A DNA stretch of 33,322 nt from Bacteroidales bacterium (lineage in GTDB: Bacteria > Bacteroidota > Bacteroidia > Bacteroidales > VadinHA17). Below are positions 15,635 through 18,559 of the stretch, one piece after another. Numbering within the stretch: position 1 is the first letter of the stretch; the number at the start of each line of letters is the position of its first letter. A model generated the notes under the pieces. The model saw nothing but the letters and a program-made list of their open reading frames with translations, did not search any database and was not told where the DNA came from. The position numbers and the translations under genes were made by a program. The stretch is from NCBI GenBank assembly GCA_019429325.1, contig JAHYJA010000018.1, positions 1 through 33,322 on the forward strand, read 5' to 3'.

Positions 15635-17221
15635 ATGAATAAACGCCCTGTCGTAATTGTTGCGTTCGAGGAATCTGATAATCTGGGAACAGGTTACCTG
15701 GCATCTGTATTGTCTGTTGCGGGATATGATACCAGGATAATCAATTTTAATGACGAAGATGAAGAAATTGTCTCTATTATTCAAAGGTTAAATCCATTAA
15801 TTGTTGGATTCTCAATTATATATCAATTTTATCTTCATGCCTTTAGGAAACTGATCGTTTCAATCCGTGAGGCCGGAATCAGTTGTCACCTTACAGCAGG
15901 AGGCCAATATGCAAGCCTGAGATTCACTGAACTTTTCAGATTTATTCCTTTCCTCGATTCGGTGGTCAGATTTGAAGGGGAATATACATTTCTCGAGTTG
16001 ATAAACTCCCTTTACTCGGGAACCGACTGGAGAAAAGTGAACGGAATTGCATATAAAGTAAACGATGAAGTAATTGCCACCCCGCTCAGGCTGCCGGAGA
16101 AAGATCTCGACAGGTTTCCATTGCCAATGCGGACACCACTCACAGAATACGCGTTTGATAAAAAATTCGCATCAATTCTGGCAGGAAGGGGTTGCATCCA
16201 CAACTGTTCATTCTGCAATACCAGAGAGTATTACAGGCAATCCGGGGGATCATATAAACGCATAAGAAAACCCGAAAAGGTGGCAGAGGAGATGGAACTG
16301 CTGCATAATAATAAAGACTGTACTGTTTTCCTGTTTCAGGACGATGATTTCCCAGTGAAGACAGGAAAAACTGCAGTCTGGACTGACAGGTTCTGTCACG
16401 AGCTGAAAAACAGGGGATTGCATAACAGATTAATGTGGAAGATAAATTGCCGGCCCGACGAGGTGGATCCAGTAAGTTTTGCCATGATGAAGGAGCACGG
16501 ATTATTTCTGGTTTATCTGGGTATTGAAGATGGTACTGACTACGGTCTAAAGAGACTGAATAAAGGTTTAACTGCGGCCCGTTGCATGGAGGGGATCAAT
16601 ACTCTCAAAAAACTAAAGATTAATTTCGATTACGGATTTATGTTGTTCCAGCCCTCTTCAACGTTTGCTACAGTCAATGAAAATCTTGACTTCCTGACAG
16701 GGCTTTGCAGTGATGGGTCCTCTCCCCTGACATTTCTTAAGATGATTCCTTTTTTTGATACCATCATCGAGAAAGAACTGATAGATGAAGGAAGATTAAC
16801 AGGAGTGCCCGGATTTTATACCTATCAATTTTACGAGGAGCCTCTTAACCACTATTGCGAGTTTACCACGGATTGTACAATGTTATGGCTGCGAGACACC
16901 AACGGTCTTTTAAATGTCCTCAGATGGGCAAGGAATTATATCGCCGTTCACGCTCGATTTGCAGAGCCCTCGCCGGAATTGTCAACAATTTCTCAAGATG
17001 TCAGAAAAATTACTGCAGAAAGCAATCTTTTTTTGCTGGATAAACTTAAAGAACTTTCAGTGATCTTTGAGACTGGGCGATTTAACAACGGTGATTACAG
17101 AAGCTTGACAGGCTATAAAGAAAGCATTAATGTAATGCATGATAACGCCAGAGCCAGGATAAACAACCAGATGATCCGGCTCCTGAGGCTCTCTGAAAAG
17201 CAATGGATTGAGGCTCTCTGA
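15635..17221 (+). CDS. B12-binding-domain-type radical SAM protein
   Basis: N-terminal Rossmann-like VVIVAFEESDNLGTGYLASVLSVAGYDTRIINFN...NPLIVGFSIIYQ, radical SAM motif GRGCIHNCSFCNTREYY (CxxxCxxC), FLFQDDDFP, YLGIEDGTDYGLKRLNKG. Confidence 0.88.
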   Translation: MNKRPVVIVAFEESDNLGTGYLASVLSVAGYDTRIINFNDEDEEIVSIIQRLNPLIVGFSIIYQFYLHAFRKLIVSIREAGISCHLTAGGQYASLRFTELFRFIPFLDSVVRFEGEYTFLELINSLYSGTDWRKVNGIAYKVNDEVIATPLRLPEKDLDRFPLPMRTPLTEYAFDKKFASILAGRGCIHNCSFCNTREYYRQSGGSYKRIRKPEKVAEEMELLHNNKDCTVFLFQDDDFPVKTGKTAVWTDRFCHELKNRGLHNRLMWKINCRPDEVDPVSFAMMKEHGLFLVYLGIEDGTDYGLKRLNKGLTAARCMEGINTLKKLKINFDYGFMLFQPSSTFATVNENLDFLTGLCSDGSSPLTFLKMIPFFDTIIEKELIDEGRLTGVPGFYTYQFYEEPLNHYCEFTTDCTMLWLRDTNGLLNVLRWARNYIAVHARFAEPSPELSTISQDVRKITAESNLFLLDKLKELSVIFETGRFNNGDYRSLTGYKESINVMHDNARARINNQMIRLLRLSEKQWIEAL

Positions 17222-17820
17222 AAAGCAATTGAGGCTCTCAGAAATAGATTGAATTGCCGTTGGCTTTAGCCAACGGATAAGAGACATTCTTTTTATCTTG
17301 GGCTTCAGCCCAAAAAAAGGGACTGAAGTCCCAGGTCTTGGGGGGAGCCCCAGTGATCCGTCAGCTAAAGCTGACGGCAATTGAGAAGACAAAAGCTGAG
17401 GGCAATTGAGAAACTGAAGCTGACGGCAATTGAGAACACTGAAGCTGAGGGCAATTGAGAAACTCAGAAGAGCAATTGAGGCTCTCAGAAATAGATTGAA
17501 TTGCCGTTGGCTTTAGCCAACGGATCTTGAGGCCTGTATGTTTTTGGGCTTCAGCCCATAAAGGGACTAAAGTCCCAAGTCTTGGGGGGAGCCCCAGTGA
17601 TCCGTCAGCTAAAGCTGACGGCAATTGAGAACACTGAAGCTGACGGCAATTGAGAAACTGAAGCTGACGGCAATTGAGATTCTCAGGAAAGCAATAAATT
17701 GCTGACTCTTCTGAAATCCGTCAGCTAAAGCTGACGGCAATTGAGAAGACAAAAGCTGACGGCAATTGAGAACACTGAAGCTGACGGCAATTGAGAAGAC
17801 AAAAGCTGACGGCAATTGAG
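17184..17820. repeat. Composite palindrome-rich repeat island (two ~160-bp modules plus 17-mer half-palindrome array)
   Basis: A 55-nt segment at 17224-17278 recurs identically at 17471-17525. Palindromes CCGTTGGCTTTAGCCAACGG (17257, 17504), GGGCTTCAGCCC, GGGACT[G/A]AAGTCCC and CCGTCAGCTAAAGCTGACGG (17358, 17602, 17718). The 17-mer AGCTGA[C/G]GGCAATTGAG occurs 11 times. Confidence 0.97.
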
Positions 17821-17911: not shown

Positions 17912-18559
17912 ATGACAAAAAGAAGCTCCTTTCTCAGATATGCCATGCTGATGATGCGCAAAAATCACAACAGCAACAAGAGAAAGGGTGTATATAATTA
18001 TATGCTCAGAGCCTCGGTAAAGATTATCGGCATCTATCTGATAATAGTCGTTCCCTTTATCCTGATCATGAAAAGGCTTATCGATTTCAACAATATCTTC
18101 CAGTTCCTGACCGATAATTTCAGCGATGCATTTGTGTTTGTCCTGTTCACAGTTTCCGAATCCTTACTGGGAATGATCCCTCCCGATTTTTTTGTGATCT
18201 GGGCGGCCAAGTTCAACTCACCGGTCATCTTTCTTTCGCTGCTCGGGATCCTCTCATACGCCGGGGGAGTAATCTCATATTTCATCGGTCACTGGCTGGC
18301 CGAAACTCCCCGTATCAAAGCCTACTCGGAACGTGTCCTTGATAAATATATTATCCTTGTCAGGAAATGGGGGGGCGCCTTTATTATCATTGCCGCACTC
18401 TTCCCTTTCTCCCCATATTCCATGGTTGTTATGGCCGTGGCCCTGTTGAAATACCCTTTCAGGTTATACCTGCTTTTTGCCATTTCGAGAATAGCACGCT
18501 TCCTGATTCAGGGAGTCCTTTACCTCGATATCCTGAAAATTGATTCCTTTTTTGGTTGA
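17912..18559 (+). CDS. VTT/YqaA-like (SNARE-associated/DedA-related) membrane protein
   Basis: ESLLGMIPPDFFVIWAAKFNSPVIFLSLLGILSYAGGVISYFIGHWLAE...FPFSPYSMVVMAVALLKYPFRLYLLFAISRIARFLIQG. Start set to in-frame ATG 17912 because the TTG at 17816 lies in the repeat island. Confidence 0.75.
   Translation: MTKRSSFLRYAMLMMRKNHNSNKRKGVYNYMLRASVKIIGIYLIIVVPFILIMKRLIDFNNIFQFLTDNFSDAFVFVLFTVSESLLGMIPPDFFVIWAAKFNSPVIFLSLLGILSYAGGVISYFIGHWLAETPRIKAYSERVLDKYIILVRKWGGAFIIIAALFPFSPYSMVVMAVALLKYPFRLYLLFAISRIARFLIQGVLYLDILKIDSFFG

Follow-up and report, generated by a model that had tools for sequence, protein, structure and literature searches.

A palindrome island in a Bacteroidales genome is most probably a cluster of non-autonomous, REPIN/BIME-like elements that are moved or maintained by a domesticated transposase of TnpA_Y1 subclass 1.2. 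We demonstrate the structure of these elements, the covariation of their stems, the conservation of a tag and a loop, the association of modules with tnpA, their dispersal in the genome, synteny of tnpA, and differing module content at orthologous sites. Most of the REP/RAYT systems known so far come from Proteobacteria, and the origin of REPINs is an open question. The system described here looks like a new branch of these "domesticated transposon" systems.

Architecture of the palindrome island

The island spans positions 17184-17820 of the window (the whole 33,322-nt stretch of DNA analyzed) and is flanked by a radical-SAM-like gene on the left (15635-17221) and a gene for a membrane protein on the right (about 17912-18559), both on the forward strand. 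The initial annotation had described two modules here, and every sequence it named in them is present in its place. Each module comprises four C-loop hairpins (A, B, C, and E) and a GC-rich segment, D. Module 1 (17252-17382, forward strand), the best query for genome-wide searches, runs A-B-C-D-E, with AATTG ... CAATT at its ends. Its A unit (17252-17276; palindrome 17257-17276) consists of the tag AATTG followed by CCGTTGGC-TTTA-GCCAACGG in forward orientation. Hairpin B (17300-17311) reads GGGC-TTCA-GCCC, with a forward loop, and hairpin C (17319-17332) reads GGGAC-TGAA-GTCCC, with a reverse loop. These are followed by D (17340-17351; GGGGGGAGCCCC) and by the E unit (17358-17382; palindrome 17358-17377), which is a tagged unit on the reverse strand: AATTG followed by CCGTCAGC-TTTA-GCTGACGG. 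Read on the forward strand, E is CCGTCAGC-TAAA-GCTGACGG, and C is GGGAC-TRAA-GTCCC across both modules. A common C-TnnA-G center had been proposed for all hairpins; this holds for A, B, C, and E but fails for D, whose loop is of a type other than TTYA.

Module 2 (17499-17626, forward strand) follows the same plan and is a tandem duplicate of module 1, with 88% identity. It contains A (17499-17523; palindrome 17504-17523), B (17546-17557), C (17563-17576, here with a TAAA loop), and D (17584-17595) on the forward strand, and E (17602-17626; palindrome 17602-17621) on the reverse strand. A solitary third E unit lies at 17718-17742 on the reverse strand, with a full palindrome at 17718-17737. Relative to A, the E unit carries a TG-to-CA change on one stem arm and a compensating change on the other, as had been observed from the sequence. 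The outer units (A and E) and the inner hairpins (B and C) are nested in inverted orientation, so that a module looks alike on both strands.

Neither the palindromes nor the fold are expected by chance. With up to three mismatches allowed, the E palindrome occurs six times (three sites, both strands), but never in 100 shuffles. The predicted single-stranded DNA fold of module 1 has an energy of -38.6 kcal/mol (z = -8.0), which none of 200 shuffles equals, and in this fold A pairs with E as a single long hairpin. REPINs have been proposed to adopt either a long hairpin or a "clover" fold and to switch from one to the other (PMC3116915).

Modules 1 and 2 both lie within a 244-bp tandem duplication (1.9 copies, 90% matches) that includes DNA of the left flank. 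Thus, although both modules are present as annotated, they are not independent. The flanking DNA is itself found in tandem copies (GAGGCTCTC...; 17184-17244, forward strand), which extend over the 3' end of the preceding radical-SAM-like gene (its open reading frame ends at 17221). The last part of this gene (17184-17221) is therefore inside repeated flank, and in a sister genome the same gene reads into an E palindrome; the repeats thus alter protein ends.

Eight further copies hold only the right half of E and its flank (AAGCTGA[C/G]GGCAATTGAG), in tandem arrays with a period of ~25 nt. Three such units (right arm, CAATTGAG, and a spacer) are found at 17389-17461, two at 17632-17680, and three at 17748-17820, all on the forward strand. 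Half-palindrome arrays are also present at other loci (L003, 1390-1500; L014, 1370-1510), and arrays of a similar kind at L044 and L047. These arrays consist of the tag, one arm, and the loop, repeated with a period of 25 to 46 nt and with the breakpoint in the hairpin loop, which hints at slippage during replication or at template switching within the hairpin.

Dispersed modules and a module-borne transposase gene

Searches of the 3.39-Mb, 263-contig assembly with a 136-nt module query returned 97 matches (E <= 10), which group into about 18 clusters. The element is thus dispersed through the genome rather than present as a single copy. A Pfam Y1_Tnp search of the same genome recovered five genes. 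One of these, a tnpA at C182:39913-40344, has an A-B array upstream and C-D-E downstream, with module palindromes on both sides, and its stop codon falls within the C hairpin (GGGACTAAAGTCCC). Judged by sequence, the window modules are the gene-less form of this tnpA-bearing element, since the gene there sits between B and C of the same module. The initial annotation had suspected a REP/BIME- or MITE-like element, possibly mobilized by a TnpA/RAYT enzyme and traceable through a gene flanked by the same palindrome. The discovery of such a gene, in the same module plan, supports that suggestion, with mobilization itself a matter of inference.

Three more Y---Q--HH TnpA genes occur in this genome (on C168, C14, and C36), each surrounded by different iterated palindromes (L031, 1-330 and 960-1500; L033, 1330-1430 and 1950-2130; L034, 1340-1440 and 1940-2030). 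Their 3-nt loops are apparently conserved (e.g., CC-TCC-GG and CC-GTA-GG). At the end of contig C221 of the same genome (G000; L035, 1-60), GGGGTTTC repeats adjoin a Y1_Tnp-like gene of another type.

The C182 TnpA is a 144-amino acid HuH/Y1 protein of the IS200 class with the signature Y---Q--HH. Seven residues are invariant in two alignments of 15 and 38 sequences (A1 and A3): H53 and H55 of the HuH motif, W93, Y113, Q117, H120, and H121. The protein scores 69.3 bits against the NCBIfam model for the IS200/IS605 family (NF033573; cutoff, 55) and only 27.8 against REP_Tyr_transpos, far below the cutoff of 80. An AF2 monomer model (mean pLDDT 92) has a Y1 transposase fold, for which the best Foldseek matches are the ISDra2 and IS608 TnpAs (E about 1e-9 to 1e-8). 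These two enzymes rank first in sequence and fold searches alike, with the Escherichia coli REP transposase (4er8) weaker. By profile and by fold, the enzyme is thus a class 1 Y1 transposase of the IS200/IS605 type. The class 2 TnpA_REP Y-motif (...NP) is found neither in this gene nor in its homologues, which have Y---Q--HH instead. Hence, the anticipated TnpA/RAYT enzyme proves to belong to the expected IS200/IS605 family but is no canonical RAYT, and the tag of its palindromes is AATTG rather than GTAG.

The combination of Y---Q--HH with HuH and W[Q] motifs assigns the enzyme, by its signature, to TnpA_Y1 "subclass 1.2". This subclass was reported in 2018 as IS200-related, of low copy number, and found mainly in Bacteroidetes and Cyanobacteria; it was tabulated as REP "no", and the typical terminal secondary structures (end hairpins) of IS200 were described as generally absent (PMC6006769). 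We find otherwise, both in 73 loci of the clade studied here and among 30 other Y---Q--HH loci (see below).

Site comparisons and the growth of clusters

Module content differs between orthologous sites, which may reflect either gain or loss. In the sister genome (G033), the window site contains two E units only, and the C182:9.5k site contains one. Seven further cluster flanks were compared with this genome: C90 corresponds there to a degenerate palindrome only, C30a is apparently rearranged, and C22 stops at a contig edge. The other checked sites mostly show reduced arrays, not absence. Among other members of the genus, both window flanks were found in order in G033 only, the other matches having the downstream gene alone. 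In Flavobacterium hydrocarbonoxydans, the site of one module (L243) is occupied by a single fused palindrome in another genome (G472) and is module-free in other related genomes, most of which carry other inserts there, so that no clean junction can be read. Several Flavobacterium genomes without the module share another inverted repeat, of ~100 bp (TGTCATTTCGACGAAGGAGAAATC...), at one orthologous intergenic site (L257, L261, L263, L264, L265, and L266). The initial annotation had looked to empty sites in sister strains; reduced content is indeed found in the sister genome, but neither its sites nor Flavobacterium module flanks compared against 150 genomes yielded a clean empty site at which a junction or a target duplication could be defined. 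Transposition or excision was not observed in these genome comparisons.

The tandem duplication and the half-palindromes show that part of the growth proceeded by recombination or slippage, not transposition. Clusters might even grow exclusively by replication slippage or recombination at hairpins, with TnpA a former seeder that is now inactive. The 244-bp duplication, the 25-nt half-palindrome arrays, and the several sister-genome sites that have fewer units rather than none all favor this scenario. Nevertheless, we consider it unlikely: TnpA retains its HuH and Tyr residues without exception in both alignments, and complete modules occur at unrelated intergenic sites in several genomes.

Inheritance of tnpA

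We find that tnpA is syntenic within Flavobacterium (two loci), Cyclobacterium, and Runella. A genome usually has one copy of the clade, and where paralogues exist they are diverged (e.g., the two of G072). This is the vertical, low-copy inheritance characteristic of RAYTs, which are likewise syntenic among species (PMC8049555), and not the pattern of mobile, multicopy, near-identical IS200/IS605 elements.

An ordinary IS200/IS605 insertion sequence, with an active and mobile TnpA and with MITEs, of which the window modules would be internally deleted copies, would agree with the family-level profile scores and with the position of the gene inside the element, between terminal hairpins. It sits poorly with the inheritance just described, namely one gene per genome, diverged paralogues, and synteny across species within genera, and near-identical recent tnpA copies at different sites, which it predicts, were not seen. 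The end hairpins of IS608 and ISDra2 also share the same orientation, whereas the outer hairpins here are inverted. We therefore regard such an insertion sequence as quite improbable.

A conserved plan across Bacteroidota

The repeat unit consists of 5'-AATTG, a stem of ~8 bp, and a TTYA loop. The 5' flank (AATTG) is conserved, while the 3' flank is not. AATTG takes the place of the GTAG/GTGG tag of RAYT-associated palindromes. Membership among GTAG- or CGTC-tagged REPs (PMC3733652) was considered and rejected, as the unpaired tag is AATTG and the CGTC of E lies within the stem.

The plan A-B-[tnpA]-C-E recurs in Flavobacterium, Runella, and uncultured Bacteroidota, which bears out the expectation of homologues in related genomes and extends it across the phylum. 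In the named genomes reached by searching with the tnpA alignment, including cultured Flavobacterium, Cyclobacterium, and Runella, forward-loop hairpins before tnpA and reverse-loop hairpins after it are common. Across 73 homologous loci from other genomes, we counted 180 hairpins with a C-TTYA-G or C-TRAA-G center and a stem of at least 5 bp no more than 400 bp away from tnpA, compared with 0.4 in dinucleotide shuffles and about 0.002 to 0.005 per 400 bp in the distal flanks. When the loop was not preset, 105 of the 107 four-nucleotide loops near tnpA with stems of at least 7 bp were TT[T/C/A]A. At the 30 other Y---Q--HH loci, hairpin density is 2.48 per 700 bp close to the gene, compared with 0.29 at a distance and 0.11 for shuffled sequence, although only 10 of these loci have at least three hairpins and several have none at this threshold.

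As in RAYT/REPIN systems, palindromic units are dispersed in many copies and flank a Y1 transposase gene, and they form inverted two-unit elements: in several genomes, outer pairs (forward, then reverse) lie about 115 to 160 bp apart. At least five inverted-pair modules of ~115-122 bp, with forward and reverse hairpins inside, are scattered through the genome of F. hydrocarbonoxydans, and A-B-C-E modules of ~115 to 160 bp occur at several loci in this species and in other Bacteroidota. In two genomes, modules (L121 and L122 in G062; L117 and L118 in G072) are embedded in a larger repeat of ~400 bp, a nested composite with TTCTTTGACATCTTGG... at one end and a degenerate inverse of it at the other.

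Stem differences are compensatory, as had been claimed for A and E. The pattern AATTGCCN5CTTYAGN5GG, in which the N5 arms are free and the outer CC/GG, the inner C/G, and the loop are fixed by the search, found matches in 37 of the 295 genomes from the order, and its reversed control found none. Over 62 distinct matches, the whole stem pairs in 95.4% of cells. Double-changed cells number 147, relative to 48.3 in shuffles, and the covariation score is 0.671, relative to 0.169 (0 of 500 shuffles in both cases).

The pattern also co-occurs with the gene. A close tnpA (E <= 1e-40) is present in 43 of the 295 genomes, 19 of which also have the pattern (5.4 expected). Stated differently, 19 of the 37 pattern-bearing genomes have a close tnpA, compared with 24 of the 258 others (Fisher test, P = 7e-9, which is optimistic because the genomes are related). 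Within the genus, module DNA and a close tnpA occur together in 11 genomes (P = 0.001). There are exceptions, in that 18 of the 37 pattern genomes lack a close tnpA and 24 of the 43 close-tnpA genomes lack the exact pattern; stem or tag variants or gene loss could explain these mismatches.

REPs are often located just behind genes, and the island has this location; hairpins may work in RNA whatever their origin, and local tandem duplication is evident, but it is highly implausible that these are RNA features of the flanking genes (terminators, mRNA stabilizers, or attenuators) amplified by recombination, with TnpA incidental, given that this combination of hairpin, tag, and loop surrounds the transposase phylum-wide and is essentially missing from the distal flanks of those loci, that the unpaired 5' tag is conserved though unnecessary for an RNA hairpin, that modules are symmetric for both strands, and that an Rfam search of the window gave no match.

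Proposed mechanism and significance

For a REPIN/BIME-like system maintained by TnpA, we propose that the enzyme most likely recognizes the hairpins in single-stranded DNA via their loop, with the 5' tag AATTG serving as a guide or cleavage determinant. Hairpin binding in single-stranded DNA and cutting near the tag would be expected by analogy with IS608, ISDra2, and TnpA_REP (PMC6006769, PMC8266576). By cutting and rejoining strands at the outer units, TnpA could spread and reshuffle modules, while its own gene stays in place and is inherited vertically, as RAYT genes are. Local tandem duplication and slippage would then enlarge the clusters.

According to one proposal, REPINs arose from the palindromes on either side of an IS200-like ancestor (PMC3116915). 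The position of tnpA between the inner hairpins of its module agrees with this idea. More tentatively, all subclass 1.2 TnpAs might be the transposases of a phylum-wide Bacteroidota REP world with lineage-specific tags and loops, in which the AATTG/TTYA clade would preserve an intermediate between IS200 and REPIN; we find this conceivable, but would not yet favor it.

What stands out is that a nested, inverted module of hairpins encloses an IS200-class transposase from a "no REP" subgroup, and that copies of the module lacking the gene occur genome-wide. Because cultured Flavobacterium and Runella share this plan, recognition (tag, loop, and stem), excision, and the IS-to-REPIN transition can be tested directly in culturable strains. 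Such systems would also account for many unannotated palindromes in Bacteroidota genomes. RepRanger counted many palindromes in Flavobacterium, in a text from which the terms RAYT and tetranucleotide are absent (PMC12306157). The papers searched, an incomplete set, describe no REP/REPIN-like system that is based on a subclass 1.2 IS200-class TnpA and combines AATTG, TTYA, and four nested hairpins, although an earlier description may exist.

Comparison with known systems

One close parallel is the REPIN/RAYT (TnpA_REP) system of Proteobacteria (Bertels and Rainey 2011, PMC3116915; PMC8266576; PMC8049555). Both have as their unit an inverted pair of tagged hairpins, dispersed between genes. In both, clusters adjoin a Y1 transposase that is inherited vertically in single copy, and each transposase has a palindrome family of its own. 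The present system differs in its class 1 (IS200-like) enzyme with Y---Q--HH, its AATTG rather than GTAG tag, its four nested hairpins rather than two, and the position of the gene inside the module, between B and C. The Marinomonas REPtron Mb has a REP loop, TTTA, that resembles the TT[T/C/A]A found here, and SELEX with this REP selected T, T, and A with the third base free (PMC8266576). This likeness may be read as a parallel, not as proof of a common recognition mode; the Marinomonas tag is GTAG and its TnpA_REP (group 3, PMC8266576) is of a different class. TnpA_REP subclass 2.6, the Bacteroidetes RAYTs with atypical hairpins (PMC6006769), shares the phylum, the atypical palindromes, and the genomic copies, but its Y-motif, YIH[QN]NP, belongs to a different class and not to the enzyme found here.

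IS200/IS605 elements with their MITEs and PATEs have in common with the present system the HuH/Y1 enzyme, end hairpins, and gene-less derivatives; here, by contrast, the ends are inverted and nested, the gene is vertically inherited, and there are more hairpins per end. TnpA_Y1 subclass 1.2 (PMC6006769) shares the Y---Q--HH signature, yet, unlike the members described previously, those studied here are surrounded by families of hairpins.
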